Source of the DNA: Fictibacillus arsenicus
GTDB lineage: Bacteria; Bacillota; Bacilli; Bacillales; Fictibacillaceae
Reading direction: 5' to 3'
NCBI RefSeq assembly: GCF_001642935.1
Contig: NZ_CP016761.1
Span: forward strand, 1,488,001-1,552,000
Length of the DNA stretch: 64,000 nucleotides
Of the stretch, positions 6,377 to 54,296 are shown piece by piece. The translations under genes and the position numbers were made by a program. Below the pieces are notes generated by a model that saw only the letters and a list, made by a program, of their open reading frames with translations, was not told the DNA's origin and did not search any database. Positions within the stretch are counted from its first letter, which is position 1. Every line of letters starts with the position of its first letter.

Positions 6377-6664
6377 ATGGCTTTGGAAATTACATTAAGC
6401 GCAAAAAAGTATATTGAAGAAGTGCTTGAAATGAATAACGCAAACGGAATCCGAGTTTATTTTGCAGGCATGGGCTGAGGAGGTCCAAAGCTTGGCCTGG
6501 CTCTGGATGAGCCGGAAAACTCAGATGTTATTGAAGAAATTAACGGAATTCGTGTTGCTTTTGACCAGAGAATTAAAGATCAGACAACTGCATTAAAGCT
6601 TGATTTTGAAGATTCTAAGCACGGCTCTGGATTAATTATGGTCGGGCAGGATGAATGCTGCTAA
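6377..6664 (+). CDS. HesB-like selenoprotein (TGA at codon 34 read as Sec)
   Basis: Reading through one TGA (6476-6478) gives a 95-residue HesB/IscA-like protein. The TGA lies in GMG-U-GGPKLGLAL, where HesB-like homologs have a Gly-Cys-Gly or Gly-Sec-Gly motif, and the frame continues open to CC-TAA. HesB-like proteins are an established bacterial selenoprotein family. A hairpin follows the TGA (separate entry). Two starts are possible: ATG at 6377, which is very close to the Shine-Dalgarno, or TTG at 6383, better spaced after AGAGGTG. Homologs bind or deliver iron or Fe-S clusters; the role of the Sec form is not known. A terminator shared with the convergent nuclease gene follows. Confidence 0.85.
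6497..6515 (+). promoter_or_regulatory. Candidate bacterial SECIS hairpin in the HesB-like gene
   Basis: Stem CTGGCTC / GAGCCGG (7 bp, one G-U pair) with loop TGGAU, G at loop position 2. The loop begins 25 nt after the TGA, within the range used for bacterial SECIS elements. An alternative, closer hairpin (AGG-U-CCAA / UUGG-CCU with a bulged U) covers 6481-6498. Confidence 0.6.
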
Positions 6665-6668
6665 AACA

Positions 6669-6709
6669 AAAACCGCTGTGACAGGAATTCCTGCCTCACA
6701 GCGGTTTTT
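6669..6709. terminator. Bidirectional terminator between hesB-like and nuclease genes
   Basis: Stem AACCGCTGTGA / TCACAGCGGTT with a second small palindrome CAGGAATTCCTG in the loop; A-run on the left, T-run on the right. Confidence 0.85.
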
Positions 6710-6718
6710 ATATTTCAC

Positions 6719-7426
6719 TTATTGCTGAGACTTCCGGAAACCGGCATCGATTGCTTCTTGCTCGCTGCAGAACCATTCTTCAGGTTTAGTAATTTTATAA
6801 TATCTGCCGCTTTCAACATGATAGATTTTTTCTCCGGAAGAGTTAATGTTCCCTTTAATCGTGCATTTTGAGTCAGCAGGCTCTTCGATTGGATCTTCTG
6901 CTTCTTCAGGAATATAACCATCCTCCTGTGAATAGTTCTCCAAACTCCAAATGCCATTCCCTTCTTTTTGAGCATGTTTTTGGATCTTCTCGTAGTCATC
7001 CACATATTTTGTGTTTGGCTCAAACACATAAGCCACTCGCGCAAATCCTTTTTCAAGCAGCGATTCTTGAACACTCTTATCGTCTGCATACACGTATGCT
7101 AAGAGTCTCCCGTACTTGTCCCGTTCACCAATTCCAAGCTCCAGCTCAACATTCGATCCGCTCAGCATGTTTTCGGTATGTTTGCTCGCTTCTTTACTAA
7201 ACGGCTGAACGGGTTTTTTTGGATGGACGCTCTCCGGGGTATCTACTAGTAAAAAGCGAACGGTTTCACTTTTACCATCGACTTTTACTTTTATCGTGTC
7301 ACCGTCGACTACGTCTAGAACTTGAACTGGAATTCTATCTTTTTCAGACGATAGCAACTGGCTGCATCCTGCGAGAACCAAGAAAATTGAAGAAAGAATC
7401 AGCCCAACTTTAAAGTTAAATTTCAT
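6719..7426 (-). CDS. Secreted thermonuclease-like lipoprotein
   Basis: A 235-residue extracellular lipoprotein. The signal peptide ends LVLAGC. The staphylococcal nuclease domain (about residues 30-160) shows VVDGDTIKV, the active-site Arg in VRFLLVDTPE, and a second Arg in ERDKYGRLLAYVY. The last 50 residues (from CTIKGNINSSG to EEWFCSE) form the small two-Cys C-terminal domain often attached to Bacillus nucleases. It resembles B. subtilis YncB/YokF. The start is the ATG spaced 8 bases after AAAGGA; another ATG three codons earlier overlaps that site. It probably degrades extracellular DNA for nutrition or competence. Confidence 0.9.
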   Translation of the reverse strand: MKFNFKVGLILSSIFLVLAGCSQLLSSEKDRIPVQVLDVVDGDTIKVKVDGKSETVRFLLVDTPESVHPKKPVQPFSKEASKHTENMLSGSNVELELGIGERDKYGRLLAYVYADDKSVQESLLEKGFARVAYVFEPNTKYVDDYEKIQKHAQKEGNGIWSLENYSQEDGYIPEEAEDPIEEPADSKCTIKGNINSSGEKIYHVESGRYYKITKPEEWFCSEQEAIDAGFRKSQQ

Positions 7427-7559
7427 ATGTATCATCCTTTAATAAGCCAATTTATTGTATATGAGTTACCCATATCTATTATAATAAAAGATAGATTGAA
7501 GAAATTATAGAATATCACATTACATGAAAAAAGTGGCGTATTCTAGAAAGGAGATTGCC

Positions 7560-8075
7560 TTGAAAAAGATACATAGATTATTTGCGATCTGTTTTGCAGT
7601 GATTTTAACACTGACAGCTACAGGCTGCGGGAATGACTCTAAGCTGAAAGAAGCGAAACTAGAAAACCAGAACGGTGAACCGGTAGCCGTATTTCCTTCA
7701 GACAAACCGTCATTAATTTTCTTATTTACAACTGCTGGCTGAGGACTCTGTCAAGCTCAGCTGGTTCAGCTGAAAGAGAATGTAAATAAGTTTGAAGATA
7801 TGGATGTTAATATGTATGCAGTGAGTTCTGATACGGTTGAACATTTATCAGCTCTTCATCAAGAAATGCAGCCGCCGTTCCCATTTTTGTCTGATCCTGA
7901 ATTTAAATTGATCGACCATCTGGATATGAAAGGCGAAGGCGTAGCAAAACGCGGTTATGCATTAGTCGATAAAAAAGGTAAAGTAATAGTTACGAAAGTA
8001 AACGACCACTGGGGAGAGCAGATCGACCAGACGTCAAAAGAAATTCATGAAGCTTATAAAAAGATGGAAAAGTAG
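7560..8075 (+). CDS. Peroxiredoxin/thioredoxin-fold selenoprotein lipoprotein (TGA at codon 61 = Sec)
   Basis: Reading through the TGA at 7740-7742 yields 171 residues. The TTG start is preceded by AAAGGAG 6 bases away. A signal peptide ends in a lipobox-like TATGC, so the protein is likely anchored outside the membrane. The mature part has the AhpC/TSA-type fold order; the TGA falls in FTTAG-U-GLCQAQ, matching the TxxC active site of peroxiredoxins with Sec for peroxidatic Cys and a Cys three residues later. The downstream half continues in frame (YAVSSDTVEHLSAL, PFPFLSD). It probably reduces peroxides or disulfides at the cell surface. Without Sec insertion the product would be a short useless stub. 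The CuA-type protein gene follows. Confidence 0.87.
7758..7772 (+). promoter_or_regulatory. Candidate bacterial SECIS hairpin in the peroxiredoxin-like gene
   Basis: Stem CAGCU / AGCUG with loop GGUUC; G occupies the first two loop positions. Exactly 20 nt separate the TGA from the loop, the same spacing as in the DsbA-like gene at 19898. Confidence 0.6.
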
Positions 8076-8103
8076 TCTGGTGAATATCACCGGGCTTTTT
8101 TCT
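8075..8103 (+). terminator. Intrinsic terminator after the selenoprotein gene
   Basis: Stem GTCTGGTGA / TCACCGGGC (9 bp with G-U pairs), loop ATA, then a T-run. Confidence 0.85.
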
Positions 8104-8104
8104 T

Positions 8105-8120
8105 TGTGACATCTGTCACA
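8105..8120 (+). promoter_or_regulatory. FNR/CRP-family operator (TGTGA-N6-TCACA)
   Basis: TGTGACATCTGTCACA is a perfect TGTGA-N6-TCACA palindrome, the consensus of B. subtilis Fnr (and E. coli CRP). If the -10 is TAAAAT at 8142-8147, the site centres near -41.5, the normal activator position; an alternative -10, TATAAT at 8153-8158, would put it near -52. Confidence 0.6.
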
Positions 8121-8189
8121 GATTCTCCATACTAGATGCATTAAAATAGGGTTATAATTACATTAGAAAGAATCAAGGAGGCAATTCAG

Positions 8190-8552
8190 ATGTTGAAAAA
8201 ATCATTGTGGCTTGCGGCAATCGCAGTTCTTGCTATCGGTATCCTGGCAGCTTGCGGTGGAGGTAAAGATAAAGAAGAAGGTTCTAAAAAAGCAGAAGAA
8301 ACAGTAACAATCGAAGCGAAGAACTTTGAGTTTGATCAAAAAGAATACAAAATCCCAGCAAATAAAGATGTTGCTCTAAAACTAGAAAACGTTGACGGAA
8401 ATCATGCTCTTATGATTGAAGGGGAAGATGTAAACATCGCAGGCGGATCGTCTGATGTTGTTAACTTAAAACCAGGTGAATATACACTTCGCTGCAGCAT
8501 TCCATGCGGAAACGGACATGCAGACATGGTTTCAACGCTTGTAGTTGAATGA
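8190..8552 (+). CDS. CuA-type cupredoxin lipoprotein
   Basis: A 120-residue lipoprotein (signal peptide ending LAACG) with a single cupredoxin domain. The C-terminal metal loop reads CSIPCGNGHADM, which is exactly C-x3-C-x3-H-x2-M, the binuclear CuA motif of cytochrome c oxidase subunit II and nitrous-oxide reductase; an upstream His is in GNHALMI. It lacks the two transmembrane helices of oxidase subunit II. A role in electron transfer, or in copper delivery to an oxidase or N2O reductase, is inferred. The FNR-like operator upstream would suit a respiratory role. AAGGAGG precedes the ATG, and a strong terminator follows. Confidence 0.87.
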   Translation: MLKKSLWLAAIAVLAIGILAACGGGKDKEEGSKKAEETVTIEAKNFEFDQKEYKIPANKDVALKLENVDGNHALMIEGEDVNIAGGSSDVVNLKPGEYTLRCSIPCGNGHADMVSTLVVE

Positions 8553-8559
8553 AAAAGTA

Positions 8560-8592
8560 AGCCCTCCGACTTGTGTCGGAGGGCTTTTTTTT
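8560..8592. terminator. Intrinsic terminator after the CuA protein gene
   Basis: Perfect stem AGCCCTCCGAC / GTCGGAGGGCT with loop TTGT and eight T. It lies against the 3' end of the convergent gene. Confidence 0.92.
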
Positions 8593-9326
8593 TAAGAAAG
8601 TGGCTGGATTTGTATAAGGTCTTTGTTGTATGGCAGTCCTTTCATAGTTGAGGCCCATAAGTTCCCGAGCAGACGCGGCATCATCTGATCCGAGGGAATG
8701 GAACCATTGTTATCGAGAAAATAAGAAAAATATAACAAGTATAGCCATGATGAAACAGGCATCAAAATATCATCCGCAAAATCACTGCTCTCTGTAATCG
8801 TAGCAAAAGAATGAGATTCCCACCCAGAAATGAAACGAGACCGTTTGCCATTAAGTTTAGACTCAATAAAATGCAGTGAATGAGCCACTTGCGGGTCATC
8901 ATCTCCATCGGCATGCGCTAACCTAGACTGCATCTCTAAAGAAATTTCATCAAGGTTGCCTGCTTCTGCAACCACATGGCATAATGACTTATCGTAATGA
9001 GCATTCAGTGGTACCCAATCATTCTTTTCTAATATCTCAACAAACGAAAGTTCTTGAGCAGGAATCTCCTTATAAGGCGGCCGGAATGTTTGTCTCCCAT
9101 ATTTCACGTTGTGCAAAGATTCTTTTACAAAATGAGCAGCAGCATACCATTGGTCGTTCTGATCTTTAAATAACCGTTCCCCGGAAGAGAGGGAATAGGC
9201 GGTAAATAAGTCTTTTTTATTAAACTCGTAATCAGGGAGCTTTTCTTGTGTCAAAAAATCAATAATCTGGTTGTCTGGTGCTTCTATTGCAGCTAGAACG
9301 AACGTATGAATGCGCAATAATGTCAC
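8592..9326 (-). CDS. Conserved-looking protein of unknown function, 244 residues
   Basis: Soluble protein without signal peptide or obvious membrane helices; a hydrophobic aromatic patch SWLYLLYFSYFL lies near residues 193-204. I recognise no motif. It begins 6 bases after the stop of the small membrane protein gene upstream on the same strand, so the two form a likely operon. It is convergent with the CuA protein gene. Confidence 0.75.
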   Translation of the reverse strand: MTLLRIHTFVLAAIEAPDNQIIDFLTQEKLPDYEFNKKDLFTAYSLSSGERLFKDQNDQWYAAAHFVKESLHNVKYGRQTFRPPYKEIPAQELSFVEILEKNDWVPLNAHYDKSLCHVVAEAGNLDEISLEMQSRLAHADGDDDPQVAHSLHFIESKLNGKRSRFISGWESHSFATITESSDFADDILMPVSSWLYLLYFSYFLDNNGSIPSDQMMPRLLGNLWASTMKGLPYNKDLIQIQPLS

Positions 9327-9332
9327 GATCCT

Positions 9333-9623
9333 CTAATTTTTTATTTTCTGAATGGTATCCTTTACGTCAGCAAAACCTTCTTTTACAGCCAAAAAGCTAT
9401 TCTTCTTTTGATATATATCATAACGAAGGTAATCTTTCTTTTCCTGCAGAAGCTGCTGCTGTGTTTTTACATCGTTCATGCGGGCAGTAATACTGTCTCC
9501 TGTACTTTTCATTTTTTGAACCGTAGTCATTGATTCCTTTATCGCTTTGAATGCCGGCACCAAAAAGAAAACAGCAACACCTGCACAGGCAGCTAAAAAT
9601 AGAAATAACCACATCATCATCAA
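9333..9623 (-). CDS. Small membrane protein with coiled coil, unknown function
   Basis: A 96-residue protein: one N-terminal transmembrane helix (about residues 3-24) followed by a highly charged helical region (residues 28-95) likely to form a coiled coil, resembling DUF948-type architecture without a firm match. GGAGG precedes a run of three ATG codons. It is the first gene of a two-gene operon with the unknown 244-residue protein. Confidence 0.7.
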   Translation of the reverse strand: MMMMWLFLFLAACAGVAVFFLVPAFKAIKESMTTVQKMKSTGDSITARMNDVKTQQQLLQEKKDYLRYDIYQKKNSFLAVKEGFADVKDTIQKIKN

Positions 9624-9687
9624 ACGCCTCCAATCATCTTTTCTTTACTAAAGTACCCGGAAACACACAAGAAAAAACAAAAAGCTC

Positions 9688-9964
9688 TTCTAAAAGAGAT
9701 TGTTGTTTTGGGATCATTTTGTTCTTTCTCTTCATTGACAGGTTGATTGGAGTGCAAGGTGCGAGACTCCTCGAAAATGAAAATCACATTTTCTTCGTGC
9801 GATGTTACGCTGTCGAAGCCTTCCTTGTCCTGTGAGATCAGCGGGACAGGTGAGCCCCCGTCAGTGCAAAGCGATAGGGAAGCTCACCGCACGCCCCGCG
9901 GAAAGCGAGCATCCTGTAACGGAAATCAACCACTTCAAAGAACATCAATTTTGCGAAAAAAGCC
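9688..9964 (+). repeat. Dispersed GC-rich intergenic repeat, copy 3 (insert-bearing subtype)
   Basis: Forward copy with the same extra segment as copy 2 after GAGACTCCT (hairpin GAAAATGAAAATCACATTTTC region, then GAAGCCTTCCTTGTCC). It carries the conserved blocks CTCACCGCACGCCCCGCGG and GAAAGCGAGCATCC. It fills the gap between the unknown operon and the siderophore operon end. Confidence 0.85.
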
Positions 9965-9967
9965 AAA

Positions 9968-9996
9968 CAAAAAACCCGGGCTGTTTTGCCGGGTTT
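9968..9996 (-). terminator. Terminator of the siderophore uptake operon
   Basis: Hairpin AAACCCGG / CCGGGTTT; read on the minus strand it follows the FhuF-like stop codon directly and ends in a T-run. Confidence 0.8.
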
Positions 9997-10763
9997 TATC
10001 TCTTGGGACATGTAGAACAGCAAGTCCCGTTTTCAGTTTTGTAATAAAGGCAGCACGTTTTGCGGATTTTCGTTGGTCCACAGCCTACAGGAGCCATAAA
10101 TCGGTGAAATGGATTCTTTGTTAATCCAAAATGATAAGCTTCTGCATCCATGAAAAATGCATAGTCTTCTTGAATGCGCTGTTTCACCTCATCTGGATGA
10201 TCCTCACTAAGCCATGTTTCGTAAATCCAGCGTATGTAGATCCAAGCATTTTCCCATAGTGTTGCTTTAGAGATACGTGCAGATTTTGCCACGTGGTTAA
10301 GCATCACTGAAATATTTTCTTTAAAAAGAGTTTCAATCACACTTGAGCGCCAGTCTTCTCTTGATTGTGAGGAGAGCTGTGCAGAAGCATCTTTTAATGT
10401 GAATGATGGAAGCCACATGGCATCGGAGTTATGGTCTATTAAGTATACGTTCTCAATATTCATGTCAAACGATTTATTTAACATAGTCATTCCGTACAGA
10501 GAAGAGGTAAGACTGCAGTAAGCATAGCGTTTAAAAAATAGCGATGCTGTAACGGGACGCTTACTAGAGCCAATTCGCGGACCTGTTTGATCCAAGAAAT
10601 CCAGCAAGTTGTCTTCGTTCAATAACTGTCCTGCAGAAATTACAGCTTCGTTCTCAAATGGTGCCTGAAAAGAAAATCGGTAGTTTGAGCTTATATGCTT
10701 TTTTTCATCTGCCGTCCATCCGTTAGACTTAGGCGTACTGAGGAGTATTGACATGTCGGACAA
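9996..10763 (-). CDS. FhuF-type ferric-siderophore reductase
   Basis: A 255-residue cytoplasmic protein of the FhuF/IucA-IucC-related siderophore reductase group. The C-terminus carries CC-x10-C-x2-C (CCLYYKTENGTCCSTC), the unusual Cys-Cys ligand set of the FhuF [2Fe-2S] cluster. It would reduce and release iron from imported ferric siderophores. It is the last gene of the divergent uptake operon, and its start overlaps the ATPase gene by 35 bases, implying translational coupling. An ATG three codons downstream is an alternative start. Confidence 0.88.
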   Translation of the reverse strand: MSDMSILLSTPKSNGWTADEKKHISSNYRFSFQAPFENEAVISAGQLLNEDNLLDFLDQTGPRIGSSKRPVTASLFFKRYAYCSLTSSLYGMTMLNKSFDMNIENVYLIDHNSDAMWLPSFTLKDASAQLSSQSREDWRSSVIETLFKENISVMLNHVAKSARISKATLWENAWIYIRWIYETWLSEDHPDEVKQRIQEDYAFFMDAEAYHFGLTKNPFHRFMAPVGCGPTKIRKTCCLYYKTENGTCCSTCPKR

Positions 10764-11547
10764 CCCGCCCCTTTCCGTATGGGATACACATTGGTGTTCC
10801 GAATACCGGATCCGGAATCACGGTACTGGACATCTGAAAGACATCTTCAACTAACTGTTCCGTCATGATTTCTTCTGGTGCACCTTGTGCATAAACTGAC
10901 TTATCTTGAATCGCTATAATATGGTGTGCATACCGGCAAGCTAAGTTCAGATCATGTAGTACCATCACTATTGTGCGCTTTTCCTTTTCGTTTAACTCGA
11001 ATAAAAGGTCCAGGATTTCTACTTGGTGTGTCATATCCAAATAGGTAGTTGGCTCATCCAGCAGAATTGTGTCAGTGCCTTGTGCGAGTGTCATAGCAAT
11101 CCAAGCACGCTGGCGCTGACCGCCAGAAAGAGAGTCAACAGGTGTTTCCATAAAAGGAAGCAGGTTTGTTGCTTTTAAAGCATTCATTACCGCTTTTTCA
11201 TCTTCTGGAGACCATTGGTGAAGCCAAGACTGATAAGGAAAACGACCTTGTTTCACGAGCTGCAGAACGGTTAATCCTTCAGGTGCTACAGGACCTTGCG
11301 GAAGGATGGCAAGCTCTTTGGCTACTTGTTTTGTGGAGCGTTTTGCAATGTCTTTTCCGTTTAACAGAACGCTTCCTGATTTCGGATTTAAAAGACGTGC
11401 CATAGATCGTAACAGGGTGGATTTACCGCATCCGTTGCTTCCGATAAAGACGGTGATTTTACCCTTTGGAATCTGCAGGTTCAATTCATCAATGATCGGT
11501 TCTTTTCCATAAGCTAACGTAAGGTTTGAGGTTGTTAAAACAGCCAT
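10729..11547 (-). CDS. Iron-siderophore ABC transporter ATPase
   Basis: A 272-residue FecE/FepC-type ATPase: Walker A GSNGCGKST (residues 37-45), signature LSGGQRQRAWIAM, Walker B TILLDEPT and H-loop VLHDLN. It powers the two permeases encoded just upstream. In B. subtilis the equivalent YfiZ/YfhA system borrows a distant ATPase (YusV); here the ATPase is in the operon. It is followed by the overlapping FhuF-like gene. Confidence 0.93.
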   Translation of the reverse strand: MAVLTTSNLTLAYGKEPIIDELNLQIPKGKITVFIGSNGCGKSTLLRSMARLLNPKSGSVLLNGKDIAKRSTKQVAKELAILPQGPVAPEGLTVLQLVKQGRFPYQSWLHQWSPEDEKAVMNALKATNLLPFMETPVDSLSGGQRQRAWIAMTLAQGTDTILLDEPTTYLDMTHQVEILDLLFELNEKEKRTIVMVLHDLNLACRYAHHIIAIQDKSVYAQGAPEEIMTEQLVEDVFQMSSTVIPDPVFGTPMCIPYGKGRVVRHVNTPQYA

Positions 11548-11563
11548 CTGTCATCCACTCCTG

Positions 11564-12607
11564 TTATTGGTTTTTAAATAATAGATAAATGAAGTACGGT
11601 GCACCGATTGCAGCTGTGAAAACACCAGCCGGCACCTCTAATGGTGAGAAAAGAGTTCTGCCAGCTAAGTCTGCTAGCACAACCATGATACCGCCGATTA
11701 ATGCTGAAGCAGGAAACAATCCGCCGAATGATGATCCGGTGATTCTCCTGGCGATATGCGGTCCGATCAATCCGACAAATCCCATTGCTCCTGCAAAGGC
11801 GATAGCAGATCCTGCTAAAGCTGTACATACCATTAAAAGCATGAAGCGTTCACGGTGAACCAAAATTCCTGCACCAGTTGTAAGGTCATCGCCAAAACCT
11901 TGAATGTTCAATCGCCTTACAAGAAGTATGAGAATCGGCAGCATTCCTAAAAACCAAGGAAGCATCGCTTTTACTTCTTTCCAAGAGGTGCCGTACACCG
12001 TTCCGGTCAGCCAGACAGTAGCCTGGCTTGCCCGGTAGATCGGTCCCATCAGCATCATTAATGTTGTTAATGCCTGAAAGAGAGCCATCAGGCCTATTCC
12101 GATCAAAATGAGCCTTATTGGCGTAACACCGTCTTTCCAAGCTAATCCGTATATTAAAAAGGCAACGATGGTCGCCCCGGCAAAAGCAAACAAAGGCAAA
12201 AAATTAATACTTAATAACAAGTTGTTGCTGTCATCACTGAACATAGTTAAAAAGGCAACTGCGGCAAATCCAGCTCCGCCTGTAATGCCAATCATGTCGG
12301 GTGAAGCAAGTGGATTCCTGATCACCCCTTGCAGGATAGCCCCTGATAGTGCAAGGGACGCGCCAGCAATAAATGCAACCATTACTCTCGGAAGTCTAAA
12401 CTCAGTTATGATCAGCTGATTCATTTCAAGACCTGATCCAATTAAAGCTGTAAATACATCAAATGGTGCGATGTATAGTTCACCGACGCCTATACTGACC
12501 AGCATTGAAAAGAGAGCAACCAATGTTAAAACTAAAATCGCAAATGTTGTTTTTTTATCAATTAAGTAAGAAAATGATTTTCGCTGTATTACCCAATACT
12601 TTCTCAT
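11564..12607 (-). CDS. Iron-siderophore ABC transporter permease (YfhA-like)
   Basis: A 347-residue FecCD-family permease with about ten membrane helices. Motifs typical of the family are visible: RLPRVMVAFIAGASLALSGAILQGVIRNPLASPDMIGITGGAG and GLIGPHIAR in the cytoplasmic coupling region. Its start overlaps the upstream permease stop by 4 bases. The pair forms the heterodimeric membrane pore for ferric siderophores, fed by the lipoprotein encoded divergently. Confidence 0.92.
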   Translation of the reverse strand: MRKYWVIQRKSFSYLIDKKTTFAILVLTLVALFSMLVSIGVGELYIAPFDVFTALIGSGLEMNQLIITEFRLPRVMVAFIAGASLALSGAILQGVIRNPLASPDMIGITGGAGFAAVAFLTMFSDDSNNLLLSINFLPLFAFAGATIVAFLIYGLAWKDGVTPIRLILIGIGLMALFQALTTLMMLMGPIYRASQATVWLTGTVYGTSWKEVKAMLPWFLGMLPILILLVRRLNIQGFGDDLTTGAGILVHRERFMLLMVCTALAGSAIAFAGAMGFVGLIGPHIARRITGSSFGGLFPASALIGGIMVVLADLAGRTLFSPLEVPAGVFTAAIGAPYFIYLLFKNQ

Positions 12608-13614
12608 CTTTGAAAAATTCCTTTACGAACAATGTAAATAAAGAACGGTGTACCGAGTAAAGCGGTAACTACTCCAACAGGAGCTTCTTCCGGCATGATG
12701 ATGTAACGTGCCCCGATGTCAGCGAGTACCAGCATGATTCCGCCTGTGAGTGCCGAAAAAGGGACAATCCATCGATGATCACTGCCGACTAGGTATCTTG
12801 CAAAATGCGGAACTACTATTCCTATAAAACTGATCGGTCCTGCAATAGCAACCGAACCTCCTGCAAGGAGAACGACCATTAGTGCAGCAGCAAATTTAAA
12901 GATCACAGTCTTCTGTCCTAAGCTGACTGCTACATCTTCTCCAAGCGCAAAAGCATTCAACTGCCGCGATAGGAGCATAGAAACAGTCCATGCTATTAAC
13001 AATGCCGGCATAACTGCTGCAAGCATGGAGAGCTTTCTGCCTTCTACAGAACCTGCCAGCCAAAACAAAACTTCATCAAGTGCTTTCTCGTTTGTTACCA
13101 GCATTCCTTGTGTAAGGGAAGCGAAAAGTGCTGCCATAACCGCTCCAGCCAATGTCAGTTTAACAGGTGTTAAACCGCCTCTTCCTGCAGACCCAAGAGC
13201 GTATGCAAGACCGGAAGCTACTGCAGCTCCAAGAAAACCGATCCACATGAATTGCTGAATAGAAGTGATGCCTAAGAAAGTAACACCAAATACAATAAAA
13301 AATCCCGCACCGGCATTTACGCCAAAAATATCAGGTGATGCGATTGGATTGCGGGTAAGTGCCTGCATAAGGACTCCTGCAATTCCTAAACTAATTCCTA
13401 CAGCCATTCCGACTAGTGCACGGGGAACTCGGGAAAGCTGTATGATTAAATGTTCATTTGAGCCGTTAAAAGCGGTGTATGCTTCAATTGCCATTGATAG
13501 CGAGGTATCTGTGTAACCTAATACAACACTCAACACCATCACGATAAAAGCGATGAATATCCCTATGATTAATACGGCTGTTCTAATTTTATTATCTTGT
13601 AATATTCCGTTCAT
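12604..13614 (-). CDS. Iron-siderophore ABC transporter permease (YfiZ-like)
   Basis: A 336-residue FecCD-family permease, first gene of the minus-strand operon. It shows LSRVPRALVGMAVGISLGIAGVLMQALTRNPIASPDIFGVNAGAG and the coupling motif GIVVPHFARYLVG. It is transcribed from the divergent Fur-box region at 13615-13799. Together with the YfhA-like subunit it resembles the hydroxamate (schizokinen/arthrobactin) transporter of B. subtilis, but the siderophore used here is not known. Confidence 0.92.
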   Translation of the reverse strand: MNGILQDNKIRTAVLIIGIFIAFIVMVLSVVLGYTDTSLSMAIEAYTAFNGSNEHLIIQLSRVPRALVGMAVGISLGIAGVLMQALTRNPIASPDIFGVNAGAGFFIVFGVTFLGITSIQQFMWIGFLGAAVASGLAYALGSAGRGGLTPVKLTLAGAVMAALFASLTQGMLVTNEKALDEVLFWLAGSVEGRKLSMLAAVMPALLIAWTVSMLLSRQLNAFALGEDVAVSLGQKTVIFKFAAALMVVLLAGGSVAIAGPISFIGIVVPHFARYLVGSDHRWIVPFSALTGGIMLVLADIGARYIIMPEEAPVGVVTALLGTPFFIYIVRKGIFQR

Positions 13615-13688
13615 CAGAGCCTCTTTTAATAATGAAAAATATTCTCATTTACAGTTTAAAAGTAAAATAGATATCTGTCAATGACTTT

Positions 13689-13707
13689 GAAAATCATTAT
13701 CATTTAG
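13689..13707. promoter_or_regulatory. Candidate Fur box 1
   Basis: GAAAATCATTATCATTTAG matches the Fur consensus GATAATGATTATCATTATC in its right half and core. It lies in the divergent promoter region of the siderophore system and could control either or both directions. Confidence 0.7.
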
Positions 13708-13710
13708 TTA

Positions 13711-13740
13711 TTGACAACGTATACATCCTCGTATTATGAT
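13711..13740 (+). promoter_or_regulatory. Sigma-A promoter of the siderophore-binding protein gene
   Basis: Perfect -35 TTGACA (13711-13716) and -10 TATGAT (13735-13740), spacer 18. One Fur box lies just upstream and one just downstream. Confidence 0.7.
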
Positions 13741-13752
13741 ACGAATTGTAAT

Positions 13753-13771
13753 TGATTCTCATTATCATTTA
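13753..13771. promoter_or_regulatory. Candidate Fur box 2
   Basis: TGATTCTCATTATCATTTA, a good Fur box, placed just after the expected transcription start of the binding-protein gene, where Fur would block transcription. Confidence 0.75.
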
Positions 13772-13799
13772 CACAATAAAAAAGGGGAGAGACAATAGA

Positions 13800-14762
13800 A
13801 TGAAAAAGATTACATACAAATGGCTAGCTCTTGTAGCCGTACTTACATTAATGCTCGCATTAGCAGCATGCGGCGGGAAAGACAAAGCGAAAGAAGAAGA
13901 AAAATCAGGCGGATCAAAAGATTCTTCTTATAAAGTAGAACATGCAATGGGCACAACAGAAGTTAAGAGCAACAAACGAGTTGTTGTTTTGACAAACGAA
14001 GGAACGGAAGCAGTTCTAGCACTTGGTGTAAAACCAGTCGGAGCCGTTAAGTCATGGTTAGGAGATCCTTGGTATGACCACATTAAGGACGATATGGAAG
14101 GCGTTGAAGTAGTTGGTAACGAGAGCGCAGTTAACGTTGAGAAAATTGCTTCATTAAAGCCAGATTTAATCATCGGTAACAAAATGCGTCAAGAAAAACA
14201 ATACGATGAACTAAACAAAATCGCACCAACTGTATTTGCAGAAGATCTTCGCGGTGACTGGAAAATTAATTTCGAGCTTTATTCTAAAGCATTAAATAAA
14301 GAAGAAAAAGGTAAAGAAGTATTAGCTGCATTCGATAAGCGTATCGAGGATTTTAAAGCAGAAGCTGGCGACAAGCTTAAAACTGAAGTATCTATGGTAC
14401 GTTTCATGCCTGGTAAATCTCGTATCTACCACCAAGATTCTTTCTCTGGTGTAATCCTTAAGCAGATCGGCTTTGCTCGTCCTGGAGACCAAAATAACCC
14501 TGACTTTGCAGAAGAAGTAACACAAGAACGCATTCCTGAAATGGATGGCGACATGCTGTTCTACTTCACATATGAAGCTGGTGACGGAAAGGCAACTGAA
14601 ACAGAAAAAGAATGGACAAATAACCCGCTTTGGAAGAACCTTGGAGCTGTAAAAGAAGGAAATGCACACAAAGTAAGTGATGCGATCTGGAACACAGCTG
14701 GCGGTGTAAAAGCTGCTAACCTTATGATTGATGATCTAGAGAAGTACTTTTTAGAAAAATAA
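13800..14762 (+). CDS. Iron-siderophore substrate-binding lipoprotein (YfiY-like)
   Basis: A 320-residue extracellular lipoprotein (signal peptide ending LALAACG) of the type III periplasmic-binding fold (FhuD/YfiY). Family landmarks: KRVVVLTNEGTEAVLALGVKPVG near the N-terminus, IASLKPDLIIGN, and an Arg at SKSR/RFMPGKSR typical of hydroxamate binders. AAAGGGGAGAG precedes the chosen ATG; 16 extra in-frame upstream codons cross the Fur box and are rejected. It is divergent from the permease-ATPase-FhuF operon, with two Fur boxes between. Confidence 0.93.
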   Translation: MKKITYKWLALVAVLTLMLALAACGGKDKAKEEEKSGGSKDSSYKVEHAMGTTEVKSNKRVVVLTNEGTEAVLALGVKPVGAVKSWLGDPWYDHIKDDMEGVEVVGNESAVNVEKIASLKPDLIIGNKMRQEKQYDELNKIAPTVFAEDLRGDWKINFELYSKALNKEEKGKEVLAAFDKRIEDFKAEAGDKLKTEVSMVRFMPGKSRIYHQDSFSGVILKQIGFARPGDQNNPDFAEEVTQERIPEMDGDMLFYFTYEAGDGKATETEKEWTNNPLWKNLGAVKEGNAHKVSDAIWNTAGGVKAANLMIDDLEKYFLEK

Positions 14763-14806
14763 TAACGAGACATAGGGGGAGCATAGTTTGCTTCCTCTAT
14801 TATTTT

Positions 14807-15019
14807 GGCTATTTTCATGTTGCTATTAGAAGTCGTTGATTTCCGCTCCAGGTGCTCCCTTTCCGCGGGGCGTGCGGTGAGCCCCCTAGGCTCTTCAAGC
14901 CTGACGGGGTCTCACCTGTCCCGCTAATCCCGCAGGAGTCTCGCACCTTGCGCTCCAATCAACTAGCCGAAGAAGCGTACTCCAAAAAATATTCAAAAGT
15001 AACAATCTTTTAGAATGAG
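14807..15019 (-). repeat. Dispersed GC-rich intergenic repeat, copy 4
   Basis: Reverse orientation, from GGCTATTTTCATGTTGC to AACAATCTTTTAGAA. The centre is GGTGAGCCCCC...GGGGTCTCACC with inner AGGCT / AGCCT, one of the clearest examples of the covarying hairpin. It separates the siderophore gene and the MFS gene. Confidence 0.88.
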
Positions 15020-15105
15020 AGAAAATATTAAATCAATGATCGTTTTCCTGTCTGAATTTTCCTATAATGAGTTTAGATAGAAAAAAGGTCAGGAGATTAA
15101 TTAAG

Positions 15106-16329
15106 ATGAAGCTTTCAGGGGAGATTTTTCGCAATAGAAGTTTTTTATATTTTTGGTTTAGTTCGATCTTAACAGCTATGGGCGACAGCTTTTTTATGAT
15201 CACATTAATGTGGCTGCTCGTTCAGATTTCTGGTTCACCTGTTATTGTTGGTACGTACATACTGCTTGTTACGCTGACGAAATTCTCGTTTGTTCTGTTT
15301 GGGGGAGCAATAGTAGACCGCTTCTCAGTAAAAAGACTGCTGATTGGATCGTCAATTGGAAGAGGAAGTATTTTGCTGCTCTTGTTTGCTGTTATTGCTG
15401 CAGGCGATCCTTCCATTTATTTCTTTTATATCACAGGGGTACTCTTTGGGCTGATTGATGCTGTAAGTGAGCCTGCAGGCATAACCTTCAGGACCCGGCT
15501 TGTCCCAGAAAAACATTACACACAGTCTATGAGCCTTTTGATGATGGCTGGTCAGGCGGCTAGTGTGGTCGGTCCAGCTCTTGGCGCAATGCTTTATGCA
15601 ATGTACGGAGCTAAAATGGCGTTCTTATTAAATGGTGTTGCATTCTTCACAGCTGCGGGCTTATTTATTTTTATTAGAGTTAATGACGAGGAGTCAGAAG
15701 AAAAAACGACTTCCTTTTTGGCTGGAATTAAAGAAGGATTTTCGTTCTTCGTTGGTGCTCCTGTTCTTGCCACGATGGCAGTGTTCGCCTTTTTTGCAAA
15801 TGCTGCGGTGGGTGCTGTCATGGTAAGTCTTCCTTTTTTAATGAAGGATTTAGATTTTGGAATAAAAGGGTACGGATGGGCTCATACTTCGCTTGCGGTT
15901 GGAAGTGTTGTAGCTGCAGTAATTTTCTCTTTATTTGTGATTCATAAACCTAAGCCTTACATGACGTTGTTAACTTGTTTCCTGCAGGGTGCAGGCATTT
16001 TCCTAATCGGTTTCTTTTCAAAAGAGCTGGCTGTTCTTCTGTTTTTGCTTGCTATGGTCGGCTTTCTTGAGGCAGCGGTTAATGTTATCGCACCGAGCGT
16101 AAATCATGCTTTAATTCCACCAAAGCTGTTCGGGCGTGTGATAGGAATCATGGTAATTATTATGGGAATTTCTGAACCCATTGCAGCAGGAACCGCGGGT
16201 TTTCTCATTGAAAAGATAGGAGCAGCAGATGTATTCGTTTGGGGAGGTTCTATGGAGATGCTAGTTGCTTTCCTCGTATTCTCACTTCCTTTCATAAGAA
16301 ATTTTAAAGGTGTTGAAAAGAGTTCGTAA
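15106..16329 (+). CDS. MFS exporter (MFS_3/EntS-like)
   Basis: A 407-residue major facilitator protein with about twelve helices. It begins FRNRSFLYFWFSSILTAMGDSFF, and has the cytoplasmic motif FGGAIVDRFSVKRLLIGSS (motif A-like) and EPAGITFRTRLVP between helices 4 and 5, as in the enterobactin-exporter-like MFS_3 group. The start is the ATG following AGGAG; 13 upstream in-frame codons are possible. Its position beside the siderophore uptake locus suggests, but does not prove, siderophore export. Confidence 0.87.
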   Translation: MKLSGEIFRNRSFLYFWFSSILTAMGDSFFMITLMWLLVQISGSPVIVGTYILLVTLTKFSFVLFGGAIVDRFSVKRLLIGSSIGRGSILLLLFAVIAAGDPSIYFFYITGVLFGLIDAVSEPAGITFRTRLVPEKHYTQSMSLLMMAGQAASVVGPALGAMLYAMYGAKMAFLLNGVAFFTAAGLFIFIRVNDEESEEKTTSFLAGIKEGFSFFVGAPVLATMAVFAFFANAAVGAVMVSLPFLMKDLDFGIKGYGWAHTSLAVGSVVAAVIFSLFVIHKPKPYMTLLTCFLQGAGIFLIGFFSKELAVLLFLLAMVGFLEAAVNVIAPSVNHALIPPKLFGRVIGIMVIIMGISEPIAAGTAGFLIEKIGAADVFVWGGSMEMLVAFLVFSLPFIRNFKGVEKSS

Positions 16330-16435
16330 TTTTTTCACAATTCTGCTACTAATCTGACATAACTTTCGCAAGGCAAATGGATGAGTTTACATAAAATATA
16401 TAGTAGAAGTAAATTTATTCCTGGAGGTTTTTACG

Positions 16436-16858
16436 ATGACTAAAAAACCGTCATATGAAAAGGAACTGCAGAAGCGCGAAATTCTAATGAAGGACGAGCA
16501 GACAAACGCCTGGTATTATGAAGACCATATCTCGGCAATCGTGAACCGTGCGCGAAAAGAAGGGGCTTTTGACAATCTGGAAGGTATGGGCAAACCGCTT
16601 AATATTGATGAAGACCTCGTTTACAATCCGGAAAAACGCCTGCACAAAGTAATGAAAGATAATAATGTTTTGCCGAATTGGGTGAAACTTGGCAAAGAGA
16701 TAGACGTATTAAAAGAAGAGCTAAAATCGTACACGGTAGAATATAACATCAAAAAAACAGTAGAGTCCATTAACCAAAAAGTGTTTCAGCATAACTTGAC
16801 GTGTCCGCCAACTGCACAGCGGATGAAAGTGAATCTGGAGGACGTTTTGAAGAAGTAA
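16436..16858 (+). CDS. DUF1992 (DnaJC28-like) protein
   Basis: A 140-residue soluble protein dominated by the DUF1992 domain, recognised by EDHISAIVNRARKEGAFDNLEGMGKPLNIDED. Human DNAJC28 shares the domain; its bacterial role is not defined. GGAGG precedes the ATG. The disrupted cupin gene begins 11 bases after its stop, so the two are probably co-transcribed. Confidence 0.88.
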   Translation: MTKKPSYEKELQKREILMKDEQTNAWYYEDHISAIVNRARKEGAFDNLEGMGKPLNIDEDLVYNPEKRLHKVMKDNNVLPNWVKLGKEIDVLKEELKSYTVEYNIKKTVESINQKVFQHNLTCPPTAQRMKVNLEDVLKK

Positions 16859-16869
16859 TTGGAGGATGT

Positions 16870-17244
16870 ATGTCTAAAATAAGCACGTTAAATGCTGAAC
16901 ATTATCAATGGGGAAATGCCTGTGACGGATGGCATCTCCTTAAACAGGATGACTTGAGTATCATCCACGAAAAAATGCCTCCGAAAACGGCAGAGGTTAG
17001 ACATTACCATGTGTTTTCTCGTTAATTTTTCTTTATTTTAAATGGTGCAATTATCATCGAAATAGATGGAGCAGAATGTGTGTTGAGTGCTCATCAAGGA
17101 TTAGAAATCCCTGCAGGTACACCTCATCAAGTGCGTAACGAAAGCGAAGTATCTGCTGAATTTCTAGTAACATCCCAGCCTCCTGCCCATGGTGATCGTG
17201 TCGTCGTTAAAAAAGTGAAAAGCATCAGTCATGTGACCCTTTAG
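16870..17244 (+). pseudogene. Cupin-domain gene interrupted by an in-frame TAA
   Basis: Without any frameshift the frame from the GGAGG-preceded ATG runs 125 codons, broken once by TAA at 17023-17025. The flanking text reads RHYHVFSR-stop-FFFILNGAIIIEIDG, where small cupins have HYH-x-x-SRQFFF; a CAA to TAA change of Gln explains the stop. The second half keeps cupin motif 2 (EIPAGTPHQVRN). TAA is not recoded as Sec, so this is a nonsense mutation, apparently recent since nothing else has decayed; a sequencing error is possible. Confidence 0.85.
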
Positions 17245-17270
17245 TATTTATTGCTATAGGGTCTTTTTCT
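17235..17270 (+). terminator. Intrinsic terminator after the cupin gene
   Basis: GACCCT / AGGGTC arms around a 17-base loop, then T-run. It overlaps the last codons of the cupin frame. Confidence 0.7.
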
Positions 17271-17352
17271 ATGGCTGATTTCGTAAACATTGTTGCTATT
17301 AAGATTCGATTCAAAGGGAAAGCTACTCAAAAAACGGACTGGAGCAGATTTG

Positions 17353-18288
17353 ATGCTGAAATACAAAAAAAACACGAACGAAACTATCCGGCTTGAGCAT
17401 TTTGAAGTTCCTGATCGCGATGAAACAATTTGGATATTTTATGATTCTCCTGAAGAAATGAAAAAAGACTCTATTCTCGAAAAAGTTGAACTTCATCATC
17501 TTGCAGCTTCTGCATTTACCACCTTTTCCGAACATCCTAGTATTAACGTGTATGCAAAACACGCTGTTGTTTCTACCTTTTATTTAGAAACGGAAAGCCT
17601 AGAACCGATTAGGATCAACCTTTTAATTGGAGAGCAATATTTGATCGTCATGTCTGAACGAAAGATACCGTTCAGAGGAGCGCTCGTAAAGGACTTTAAA
17701 GAAAATCCGGAACATATGCAGCACGTCAGCTATATGCTTTATTATTTCATGAAAGATATCGTGAATTCTTATTTAGAAGTGGTGGATCAGCTTTCAAATG
17801 AGTTTTTAGAGCTCGAAAAAAGAGTTTTTGTTGATCCGTTAAAACGTGAGATCGGACATAAAGTTTATCGCTGGAAAAGCCGGCTGCACAAATTAAGACA
17901 ATACGTGGAAGCAGAAGAGAGTATCATTCAAAAGATGGGACACGATGATTTTGAGTACGCCAATGAGGAATCAGGCTTTTATTTTAAGGATCTGCTCTCT
18001 GCTTTCTCAAGAGTGACAACTGCATTTGACAGTTTTAAAGAGAATCTAAAGGGTGTTCTAGATCTACAGATGTCATTAAAATCAGATCACATGAACCGCA
18101 TTATGAAGACCCTTACCCTTGTGAGTGCAGTCTTTGTACCCCTGACGTTTATCGCAGGTCTATATGGTATGAACTTTGAATATATCCCTGAGCTGAAATG
18201 GCGTTACGGCTATTTCTATGTATTAACGCTTTGTTTTTCTTTAGCTGTAATGATTATGGGTTATTTTAAGAAAAAAAGATGGTGGTAA
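17353..18288 (+). CDS. corA: CorA-like divalent cation transporter
   Basis: A 311-residue CorA/YfjQ-type inner-membrane Mg/Co channel subunit. A long cytoplasmic domain precedes two C-terminal helices, with the signature YGMNF at the end of the first helix (residues 271-275) and a basic tail KKKRWW. The chosen ATG has GGAG 8 bases upstream; a TTG 21 codons earlier lacks a convincing site. A second Mg transporter, mgtE, lies at 42610. Confidence 0.92.
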   Translation: MLKYKKNTNETIRLEHFEVPDRDETIWIFYDSPEEMKKDSILEKVELHHLAASAFTTFSEHPSINVYAKHAVVSTFYLETESLEPIRINLLIGEQYLIVMSERKIPFRGALVKDFKENPEHMQHVSYMLYYFMKDIVNSYLEVVDQLSNEFLELEKRVFVDPLKREIGHKVYRWKSRLHKLRQYVEAEESIIQKMGHDDFEYANEESGFYFKDLLSAFSRVTTAFDSFKENLKGVLDLQMSLKSDHMNRIMKTLTLVSAVFVPLTFIAGLYGMNFEYIPELKWRYGYFYVLTLCFSLAVMIMGYFKKKRWW

Positions 18289-18342
18289 TCGTTACATAAA
18301 AATTCGGCAGTGGCGGAAAATAAATAAAAAGGAGGGCGTAAC

Positions 18343-18693
18343 TTGGAGAAAAGACCTTATTATGTGAACGTTGAGAGCGGAGAAATTTTGCCGATAAAAA
18401 CTGCATCAACTTTTCAGTTTGAGATATCAGCTTCAGATGATGATGTGCGAAAACTCGAGAAAAAGTTTCAAGAGGTAGACAGCGCCGCATCAGATACTTT
18501 CGTAAGATCGCATGTACCATACGTTCCTTATTCAAATGATCCAGATAACGATCGCTATGATCAAAAATTACAAGAGGCTTATCGGATCATCCATGACCTT
18601 GGCCAAGACGAAACAAGACGGTTTATTGAAACGATGAGCTTCTGGAATCCGGAAAAACCTGAAGACATTGAAAAAAGGCCAGAGAATAATTAA
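18343..18693 (+). CDS. Conserved hypothetical protein, 116 residues
   Basis: Small acidic soluble protein starting at TTG after GGAGGG. It has no signal peptide or membrane helix and ends in a charged, Pro-rich tail (NPEKPEDIEKRPENN). I recognise no catalytic motif. It follows corA by 54 bases and is closed by a terminator overlapping its stop. Confidence 0.75.
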   Translation: MEKRPYYVNVESGEILPIKTASTFQFEISASDDDVRKLEKKFQEVDSAASDTFVRSHVPYVPYSNDPDNDRYDQKLQEAYRIIHDLGQDETRRFIETMSFWNPEKPEDIEKRPENN

Positions 18694-18708
18694 TCTCTTG
18701 GCCTTTTC
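18674..18708. terminator. Bidirectional intrinsic terminator
   Basis: Stem AAGGCCAGAGA / TCTC-T-TGGCCTT with one bulged T, A-rich left flank and TTTT on the right; shared by convergent genes. Confidence 0.8.
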
Positions 18709-18713
18709 TTTGG

Positions 18714-18941
18714 TTAATAAACGAAGAATGCAATGTAGATGATGAGGATCACCGCTATAGAAAATCCTGCTAATGCAATAAAAACGGGATTTAATAATGC
18801 AGTATGTCTTGAGACTGCAGGGTTTACTTCGTCTTCCGTATAAACTTTTTGTTTCTTTGCGACCTTCATTGTCCACCATAGTCCAGCAGCCGCTACAAGG
18901 ACAGCCAATAAGATAAAGAATAGTGTAAACAAAATGTTCAC
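18714..18941 (-). CDS. Small two-helix membrane protein
   Basis: 75 residues: a hydrophobic helix at residues 3-24, a charged cytoplasmic or external loop (KVAKKQKVYTEDE), and a second helix at residues 51-74. AAGGAG is correctly spaced before the ATG. Family not recognised. It lies downstream of the deoxynucleoside kinase gene on the same strand, 37 bases apart. Confidence 0.7.
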   Translation of the reverse strand: MNILFTLFFILLAVLVAAAGLWWTMKVAKKQKVYTEDEVNPAVSRHTALLNPVFIALAGFSIAVILIIYIAFFVY

Positions 18942-18978
18942 TCCTTAAAGCTTGATTGTCCATATAGTGTTTGTGGAT

Positions 18979-19647
18979 TTAGCGGGTTTCATGCATAACA
19001 GCAGAACGTTGTTCAAGGGACTCGAGACGCTGAAGTTCATTTTTAACAAGTGTCATAATTTTATCCTGATCATTCCTGTCAAAGATATTGTATTGGTCAC
19101 TTTCAATCATTAATACGGGTGTCTTATCATACGCTTTGATCCAGTCTTTATATTTTGCATGAAGCGTTTTGTAATAAGCTAGAAGTTCAGGATTCTCTTC
19201 AACCTGCTCATAAGAACGGCCTCTTTGTTTAATCCGGTTCAAAACGGTTTCCAAGTCACTGTCCAGATAAATAAGCAAGTCCTGACGTGACTTTGGAGTT
19301 TTGTCAATTTCGTTCATCATCGTTTCAAGCAGATCCTTATACGTATCAAATTCAAGCTGTGTCATATTGCCGGAATCAAAGTTCAGTTCTGCAAAAATCA
19401 GATCTTCATAAAGACTGCGGTCCAGGACGTTATCAGGACTTGTTCTTGCTTGGCGAATCGTTTTAAAGCGTGTGTTCAGAAAATAAATCTGAAGCGGGAA
19501 AGCCCATCGCTTCGGGTTTTTGTAATAATCGGGTAAAATAGGGTTATCAACGACACTTTCGTAAAAAATCTCGCTGCTTAGCTGCTCGCTCAGAAATTCA
19601 GCATACGTTGATTTGCCCGTTCCGATCATACCTGCCATTAAAATCAC
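18979..19647 (-). CDS. Deoxynucleoside kinase (dAK/dCK type)
   Basis: A 222-residue P-loop kinase of the dNK family. Walker A GMIGTGKST (residues 6-14), the DRS motif LDRSLYED (residues 75-82) and the LID Arg-rich segment RIKQRGRSYEQ are present. It phosphorylates deoxyadenosine, deoxycytidine or deoxyguanosine for salvage. Only one of the pair usually found in Bacillus (dck and dgk adjacent) is here, so substrate preference is left open. GGAGG precedes the ATG. Confidence 0.88.
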   Translation of the reverse strand: MILMAGMIGTGKSTYAEFLSEQLSSEIFYESVVDNPILPDYYKNPKRWAFPLQIYFLNTRFKTIRQARTSPDNVLDRSLYEDLIFAELNFDSGNMTQLEFDTYKDLLETMMNEIDKTPKSRQDLLIYLDSDLETVLNRIKQRGRSYEQVEENPELLAYYKTLHAKYKDWIKAYDKTPVLMIESDQYNIFDRNDQDKIMTLVKNELQRLESLEQRSAVMHETR

Positions 19648-19861
19648 GGTATATCCTCCTAAAATGAAATGCTAAAACACATTAATGTAAAAGCGTGGTT
19701 CATATGTATGTAAATCAATATATGGTATGTATGGCTTGTAAGCCCTTCTAAATATATCACGGAATACAAAAGGTGAACAGAGGCTGTTTGTCGGAAAATG
19801 GAGAATTTGGCCTAAAGTTTAATAACTAAGAAGTAAAGAGCAAGGAGAGGAGATAAGGGAT

Positions 19862-20494
19862 ATGACTATTAAAATCAGAGTTTATTCAGATTTCGTTTGA
19901 CCATATTGTTTTTTAGCGGAGGCTCCGCTATTAGAAGCAACAAAGGATAAAGATTTTGAAATAGAATGGATGCCATTTGAATTGCGTCCCTATCCAGAGG
20001 AGACGTTAAAGCCTGAAGGCAATTACATTCAGCGTGCATGGCAGGAATCTGTACTTCCACTTGCACAAAAGATGGGAGTAAAAATGATTCTGCCGGAAGT
20101 ATCACCTCAGCCTCATACACACCTGGCACATGAGGGTCTTTTATTTTCTAAAAAGCATAAGAAAGAGAAAGAATATGCACACCGTGTTTTTACCAGTTTC
20201 TATCAAGAAGGTAAAGACATAGGACAAATTGGAGTACTTCGCGGCATCGCTGAAGAGGTTGGGCTCGATGGAGAATCGTTTGAGCAGGCACTCGTTTCCC
20301 GTGAATTCTGCAGCGAGAGAGAAGAATACTTACGGCGAGCGTTTGAAGAGGTGCAAATTACAGCTGTTCCGACTATGTTTATCGGGGACAGAGTTTTAAA
20401 AGGGCTCCACCCGCAGGCAAATATTGAACGTGCTTTAAGAGGAGCGATCCGGGACGAGAAGATGGAATTTTGCGAAGGCGAAGAATGTGAATAA
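19862..20494 (+). CDS. DsbA/FrnE-like selenoprotein oxidoreductase (TGA at codon 13 = Sec)
   Basis: Reading the TGA at 19898-19900 as Sec gives a complete 210-residue DsbA-family protein of the cytoplasmic FrnE type. The active site is DFV-U-PYC, exactly replacing the CPYC/CPWC motif. The frame downstream shows the cis-Pro loop ITAVPTMFIGDRVLKG and a C-terminal CEGEECE tail. AGGAGAGGAG precedes the ATG. It probably catalyses thiol-disulfide exchange; FrnE of Deinococcus functions in oxidative stress. A conventional gene caller would start at an internal ATG near 19970, losing the active site. Confidence 0.9.
19914..19930 (+). promoter_or_regulatory. Candidate bacterial SECIS hairpin in the DsbA-like gene
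   Basis: Perfect 7-bp stem UAGCGGA / UCCGCUA with loop GGC; G at loop position 1. The loop begins 20 nt after the TGA. It is the clearest of the three hairpins. Confidence 0.7.
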
Positions 20495-26400: not shown

Positions 26401-26888
26401 TATTTATACTTTGGCAGCTGCAGAACTTCCCATGTATGATAAGACTTTCTTTCAGCTGGTATCTTCTTTTCTAAAAGATAGTGTTTTGCTTCACTAACAA
26501 GGGGAGAACACCAATCTTCTTTCAAAAATTCAGTTTCCATCCATAAGACACCCTTCGAATCTTGATCGGGAATATCTGCTAAAGAAATTTTATTTGTTTC
26601 ATCCACGGTACATAAATAATAGACAGCAGTATGCTGAGATTGTGTTCAATGTTTGTAATTCCACGGAAGTTCATAAGACCTTTCACCGGCTCTAACTGCT
26701 GTCAGCACCTTATAACCGGTTTCTTCTAACACCTCTCGCTCAACGGTTTCGATTTCTGTTTCACCACTTTCAGGTGTCCCGCCCGGAAGGTCAAGGCGGT
26801 TCTTGTACGGGCCGCCGCTCTTTTCCACAGTGAGCAGGTGACCAATGTCATTTGTGCAGATGCAATAAATTCCTTTATGTTTATGCAT
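26400..26888 (-). pseudogene. NUDIX hydrolase gene with an in-frame TGA
   Basis: One frame of 163 codons broken only by a TGA at 26646-26648, between PWNYKH and TQSQHTAVYYLC. The Nudix box (G-x5-E-x7-REVLEETGY, starting GGTPESGE) is intact in the first part. No Cys or redox motif neighbours the TGA; the following hairpin (CAGCA / TGCTG, loop TAC) lacks G at the loop start and its loop is only 14 nt from the TGA. A Trp to stop mutation is the simplest reading, so the gene is called a pseudogene. Confidence 0.75.
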
Positions 26889-29996: not shown

Positions 29997-30013
29997 AAAT
30001 AAAAACAACCAAA

Positions 30014-30042
30014 GAAAAAAACCGGCAACAGTATGCCGGTTT
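30014..30042 (-). terminator. Terminator of the cold shock gene
   Basis: AAACCGGCA / TGCCGGTTT stem; on the minus strand it is followed by a T-run. Confidence 0.85.
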
Positions 30043-30059
30043 CGTATATAAGTTTAAAC

Positions 30060-54264: not shown

Positions 54265-54296
54265 ATCTATAAACGAATAGGAAACCTTTGTTTAAA

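Follow-up and report, generated by a model that had tools for sequence, protein, structure and literature searches.

Three probable selenoprotein genes within 14 kb of a Fictibacillus chromosome and the family-wide spread of selenocysteine coding

Three genes lying within 14 kb of a Fictibacillus chromosome, encoding a HesB/IscA-like protein, a peroxiredoxin (Prx)/redoxin-like lipoprotein and a DsbA/FrnE-like protein, are each interrupted by a single in-frame TGA, and the question raised by this locus is whether these codons are read as selenocysteine (Sec, U) or mark broken genes. Our study covers a window of 64,000 nucleotides, bases 1488001-1552000 of a single-contig chromosome of 4,055,461 bases (4.06 Mb; genome G000, contig C1), together with 34 genomes of the same GTDB family; in what follows, G-numbers denote genomes and L-numbers fetched loci, and positions given in kb are those of the chromosome. 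All three are almost certainly genuine selenoprotein genes, in which UGA would be read as Sec through the sel system of this genome and a hairpin behind each codon. The genes and their RNA elements are present in the DNA, and the decoding of UGA as Sec is proposed by analogy with the established bacterial pathway. An earlier note on this DNA had claimed three selenoprotein genes within 14 kb, each with a TGA at the catalytic position and a hairpin of the bacterial Sec insertion sequence (bSECIS) type, and our analysis bears this out. All three genes fall in already-known selenoprotein families; what is added to the known kind is the spread of Sec coding through the family and a set of eight such genes in one genome.

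The HesB/IscA-like gene (6377..6664, plus strand) encodes 95 amino acids with TGA read as U; its TGA at 6476-6478 corresponds to U34 and opens the motif UGGP (residues 34-37), an instance of the UxGP motif of HesB-like selenoproteins. Its true start may be the TTG at 6383, which is better spaced from the Shine-Dalgarno-like AGAGGTG. The Prx gene (7524..8075, plus strand, 183 amino acids on the same reading) has its TGA at 7740-7742, giving U73 in the UxxC motif UGLC, and likely starts at the TTG at 7560 behind AAAGGAG. Inspection by eye shows a lipoprotein-type signal, LTATGC, in its product, which matches AhpC-TSA with 70.7 bits (gathering cut-off 26) and Redoxin with 54.6 bits (cut-off 26.6). 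The DsbA/FrnE-like gene (19862..20494, plus strand, 210 amino acids) has its TGA at 19898-19900, giving U13 in the UxxC motif UPYC, and its product scores 102 bits against the DSBA domain PF01323 (gathering cut-off 25.6). Judged from family membership, the HesB-like protein most likely has an Fe-S or metal-related role, while UxxC-dependent disulfide exchange is the most likely activity of the other two proteins, outside the membrane for the lipoprotein and in the cytosol for the DsbA-like protein.

Each TGA is followed by a hairpin on the same strand: CTGGCTC-TGGAT-GAGCCGG at 6497..6515 in the HesB-like gene, TCAGCTG-GTT-CAGCTGA at 7757..7773 in the Prx gene and TAGCGGA-GGC-TCCGCTA at 19914..19930 in the DsbA-like gene. 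The bSECIS model given in section 5 of a 2026 catalogue of selenoproteins (PMC13188914) calls for a loop of 3-9 nt with a G in its first two positions, a stem of 4-16 bp, a UGA-to-loop distance of 16-37 nt and a minimum free energy of at most -7.5, and all three hairpins satisfy every one of these constraints. Their stems are of 7 bp each, and the energies of the bare hairpins are -12.6 (HesB), -8.3 (Prx) and -8.5 kcal/mol (DsbA). The distances of 20, 20 and 25 nt proposed in the earlier note hold as a range, though not in their order, since we find 25 nt for HesB, 21 nt for Prx and 20 nt for DsbA. Ranked by score against the 2647 TGA trinucleotides on both strands of the window, the three fall in the top 0.7-0.9%, or 1.2-1.4% with a wider range. 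A scan of the window for a hairpin with an open frame on both sides returned 17 candidates, among which the three genes hold ranks 2-4; the first-ranked candidate, at 20654, forms a long, perfect stem that follows a very short open reading frame and is probably a terminator.

In the DsbA-like and HesB-like genes the TGA aligns with a Cys of homologues or distant paralogues. For the HesB-like gene, all 28 matches at E<=3e-28, from 26 genomes, have one internal TGA; 26 of the 28 were fetched, and in each of them the TGA was confirmed at the U34 site. Four distant paralogues that were also fetched have TGC (three) or AAT (one) at this site. For the Prx gene, 33 of 33 related named loci retain the TGA; they come from Fictibacillus, Cytobacillus, Neobacillus, Halalkalibacter, Alkalihalobacillus and unclassified Bacillus, and the nearest, those of Fictibacillus, share 74-95% identity. 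The site codon of the DsbA-like gene varies across 30 fetched homologue loci, with TGA in 11, TGT in 13 and TGC in six. Scored by a single rule, the hairpins reach 14-17.5 in 35/35 HesB TGA loci, 13-19 in 48/48 Prx TGA loci and 16-19 in 11/11 DsbA TGA loci (the HesB and Prx sets partly duplicate species, as named and genome copies), and a score of at least 15 is found in none of the four distant HesB paralogues and in one of the 19 Cys-coding DsbA loci (L050). An alignment of the 33 named Prx loci (28 distinct rows), with 500 shuffles and slid-partner controls, has 92.9% of the cells of the Prx stem paired, the figure for the slid controls being 11-34%; compensatory changes occur in two of the seven pairs, and their 16 two-sided cells were reached by none of the 500 shuffles.

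Such genes call for selA, selB, selD and selC in the same genome. The earlier note had predicted an active Sec system and had named the lack of Sec synthesis genes as what would speak against it; the full sel set is in fact encoded in this genome, about 0.46 Mb from the window. The products of selB (361 bits, cut-off 242), selA (538 bits, cut-off 268) and selD (408 bits, cut-off 125), the last with an in-frame TGA of its own in GGUGCK, are encoded at 2,017-2,026 kb, and a tRNA-Sec with the anticodon TCA, detected by both ARAGORN and Rfam, lies at 2,016 kb. On the bacterial model, SelD would provide selenophosphate, SelA would convert Ser-tRNA-Sec to Sec-tRNA-Sec, and SelB would carry the latter to the ribosome, where the hairpin, starting 13-18 nt 3' of each in-frame UGA, would recruit SelB and so place Sec at the redox-active position. 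The earlier note called the use of Sec sparse in Bacilli, a view that does not hold for this lineage: selA and tRNA-Sec are both above cut-off in the same 32 of the 34 family genomes, and neither is in the remaining two (G021 and G029). Sec coding is thus a family-wide trait, common rather than sparse, in this Bacillaceae-type lineage, which stands close to Bacillus, itself well studied. In G021, the DsbA match has no TGA and there is no match to the Sec-type HesB.

The clustering of the three genes might be taken to mark a functional selenoprotein island or regulon. By rough arithmetic, three of eight genes would fall within 14 kb by chance with a probability of about 0.002, and HesB and Prx are neighbors in all nine named Fictibacillus loci. 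The comparison across genomes makes such an island very unlikely. Of 18 Fictibacillus genomes, all but G001, which lacks a close match to DsbA, keep HesB and DsbA at a spacing of 11-14 kb, yet the DsbA gene carries TGA in five of these 17 (G000, G002, G006, G007 and G014) and is Cys-coding in the other 12. In the sister genus, the four genomes that have both genes on one contig (G026, G028, G031 and G032) separate them by 365-548 kb. No HesB stands beside Prx in the 24 named loci from outside Fictibacillus (within 10 kb on each side, or less in L026 and L044), and a nuclease gene on the opposite strand separates HesB from Prx in the window. Because the spacing is kept without the DsbA TGA, and the genes are unlinked in the sister genus, we read the three as adjoining by inherited gene order and not as a unit.

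The in-frame TGAs could also be nonsense mutations or sequencing errors in pseudogenes, and breaks of this kind do occur here: a cupin gene (16870-17244, plus strand) is cut by a TAA in its frame at 17023, and G005 has a broken homologue of the Prx gene; this copy (L094) lacks a residue at the site and was excluded from the hairpin-score counts. The cupin TAA has only a weak hairpin behind it and the frame is intact in nine of nine Fictibacillus relatives, so this is an ordinary nonsense mutation; a NUDIX gene on the minus strand, located with a relaxed NUDIX-box pattern (the strict pattern gave nothing), has an in-frame TGA at 26646-26648 after the NUDIX box, again with a weak best hairpin, and is probably broken. 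Both had been put forward as internal controls and act as such here. By contrast with such pseudogenes, the TGAs of the three selenoprotein genes are kept across genera with open frames downstream, their hairpins are retained, with compensatory change in Prx, and the machinery for Sec is encoded in the genome; we regard the pseudogene explanation as extremely improbable. Reading of TGA as Trp, or low-level read-through by a near-cognate tRNA without Sec, is likewise extremely improbable: it has the open frames alone in its favor, whereas the site holds Cys in 19 of 30 DsbA loci, the hairpins fit the bSECIS model, a tRNA-Sec with a TCA anticodon is present and TGA still acts as a stop, as in the sel region, where the glycosyltransferase gene ends at a TGA overlapping the start of the next gene.

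Several observations nevertheless weigh against the assignment of the three genes as selenoprotein genes. The HesB-like protein is below the cut-offs of both of its best NCBIfam models, with 60 bits for NF038090 and 52.5 bits for TIGR01911 (HesB_rel_seleno, cut-off 66.35), and thus resembles the latter family without being filed as a member. The core of its hairpin, TGGCTCTGGATGAGCC, is unvarying across 24 of 24 distinct sequences (L080-L105) while protein identity falls to 53-57%, and so yields no covariation signal. The covariation in the Prx hairpin is modest: two of the seven pairs covary and four are invariant, 12 of the 28 rows lack pairing at the loop-closing position, and neither the number of covarying pairs (equalled in 210/500 shuffles) nor that of pair types (319/500) rises above the shuffles. 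Among the 33 named loci no orthologue of the Prx gene with Cys is seen, so that its catalytic position is backed solely by the match to the AhpC/redoxin profile. Finally, G029, with no selA or tRNA-Sec above the cut-offs, has TGA and intact hairpins in both its HesB (L104) and DsbA (L069) genes. With sel-region DNA of G030 and G032, neither a sel cluster nor clear flanks were found in G029, where there were short scattered matches only, and two further stretches fetched from this genome contained no sel gene; in G028, a genome of that genus, cluster and flanks alike were matched. The lack in G029 may reflect an assembly gap or a real loss that left selenoprotein genes stranded.

The accessible text of the 2026 catalogue lists HesB-like (TIGR01911, UxGP), DsbA-like form 1 (UxxC) and Redoxin (UxxC) selenoproteins, and that of a 2016 survey (PMC5029168) counts HesB-like, Prx and DsbA-like ones; a 2006 survey (PMC1794560) has, in the part available, three selenoproteins of three families for Bacillales. 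The window HesB shares UxGP with the HesB-like selenoproteins (TIGR01911/NF038090), and its two best NCBIfam models are of the IscA/HesB selenoprotein type, although its scores place it in a divergent branch. The window Prx shares the catalytic UxxC with the Redoxin and Prx-like oxidoreductase selenoproteins (PF08534, PF00578) and exceeds the gathering scores of both Pfam models, while differing in its lipoprotein-type signal and in reaching the cut-off of no NCBIfam model. The window DsbA shares UxxC, as UPYC, in its DSBA domain with DsbA-like form 1 (PF01323), whereas its nearest solved structures in the PDB are FrnE chains, at an E-value of only 9e-9. A literature search found nothing on selenocysteine in Fictibacillus or Neobacillus, subscription journals being mostly outside its reach, and for selenoproteins and selenocysteine in Bacillaceae the one match was apparently a paper on tick flora. 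Gene callers that stop at TGA truncate or miss proteins of this kind.

The DsbA-like gene shows switching between Sec and Cys at one site. With this site masked, the tree of the DsbA loci requires at least three changes between Sec and Cys, forced by its starred branches. The Cys-coding gene L050 (G013) nests within the Sec clade that contains our own genome (support 95/84); it has TGT at the site and, in the same position as its Sec relatives, a 7-bp stem that is perfect, with the loop AGC in place of GGC or GGT. Because it is nested in a Sec clade and retains the perfect stem, L050 is best read as a recent change from Sec to Cys that has left a fossil hairpin. Fossil SECIS-like structures in Cys homologues have been shown earlier in other families (PMC1794560); L050 likewise combines a Cys codon with an intact 7-bp stem, though it belongs to a different family and lineage from the two cases named in the available part of that survey. 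Weaker hairpins, with scores of 12-13, occur in some other Cys-type DsbA genes (L055, L063, L065 and L066). That of L063 (G018), scoring 12.5, stands at nearly the same position and is possibly a decayed bSECIS. The presence of Sec and Cys versions within one genus, with the hairpin retained in one Cys version, offers a natural setting in which to test why Sec is retained or lost.

The further selenoproteins that the earlier note expected elsewhere in the genome were found, at least five genes outside the window: selD and four with a TGA at a thiol-redox site and a hairpin. Of these four, the gene near 1,175.5 kb encodes a second DsbA, with UPFC, and that near 409.4 kb a peroxiredoxin, with FTPGU. 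An AhpC-type protein with UPFC is encoded near 716.3 kb; its best NCBIfam model is SelL-related (93 bits, cut-off 120). The fourth, a thioredoxin with WUPGC near 1,977.1 kb, by eye has no ordinary in-frame start codon between its domain and the upstream TGA. The second DsbA has TGA and hairpin in six of seven fetched Fictibacillus relatives and no TGA in the seventh, G001. The total of eight is a lower bound from a search of chosen families. Taken bare, the hairpins of seven of the eight genes are within the energy limit, the exception being that of the peroxiredoxin at 409 kb (-6.0 kcal/mol against -7.5); the hairpin of selD lay outside the loop range in the first scan and was scored once the range was widened. 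No TGA or other stop lies inside the three molybdopterin oxidoreductase matches of this genome, yet Sec coding persists in it.

All four parts of the bacterial SelA/SelB/SelD/tRNA-Sec trait are above curated cut-offs here; the arrangement differs in that a glycosyltransferase and a PhnDEC-like ATP-binding cassette (ABC) transporter separate selB from selD. These glycosyltransferase and PhnD-PhnE-PhnC-like genes lie at L130:7095-10527 (G000:C1, about 2,019-2,022.5 kb). The glycosyltransferase scores 231 bits with NF038229 (cut-off 400) and 75.6 bits with the SenB model TIGR04348 (cut-off 300). The PhnD-like protein passes the cut-off of TIGR01098, a general subfamily; with TIGR04553, a putative selenate-binding model (cut-off 250), it scores 189 bits, and with PhnD TIGR03431 (cut-off 261) 221 bits. 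The block is present in five of eight sel regions compared (L130, L150, L153, L155 and L156) and absent in L151, L152 and L154, the last of which has two short PhnC-like pieces; L150 and L154 come from the same genome. That the block serves the uptake of selenium or the synthesis of selenosugars would be a guess from its position and these weak models. A wider proposal, which we consider doubtful, is that the spore-formers of this family keep Sec for at least eight mostly thiol-redox selenoproteins, and not for formate dehydrogenase, fed by a PhnDEC-like importer of selenium oxyanions and a SenB-like glycosyltransferase as a combined Sec and selenosugar module. Against it stand the PhnE and PhnC scores, which pass phosphonate-transporter cut-offs (248 vs 217 and 282 vs 266), and the lack of the block in three of eight sel regions. 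No description of such a combined module was among the literature matches listed, and the papers listed in a search that included the GPMC system did not name it.

Other features of the window can be noted briefly. A cupredoxin-like lipoprotein gene with a CxxxCGxxHxxM stretch (8190-8552, plus strand) adjoins the Prx selenolipoprotein gene. A conserved pair of Prx and downstream cupredoxin lipoprotein was considered and rejected, the cupredoxin being found in nine of the 33 Prx loci, all nine from Fictibacillus; the nuclease gene is likewise near Prx in nine of 33, again all Fictibacillus. Rfam matches in the window comprise a cspA thermoregulator (30013-30411, minus strand) and a c-di-GMP-I riboswitch (54287-54376, plus strand).

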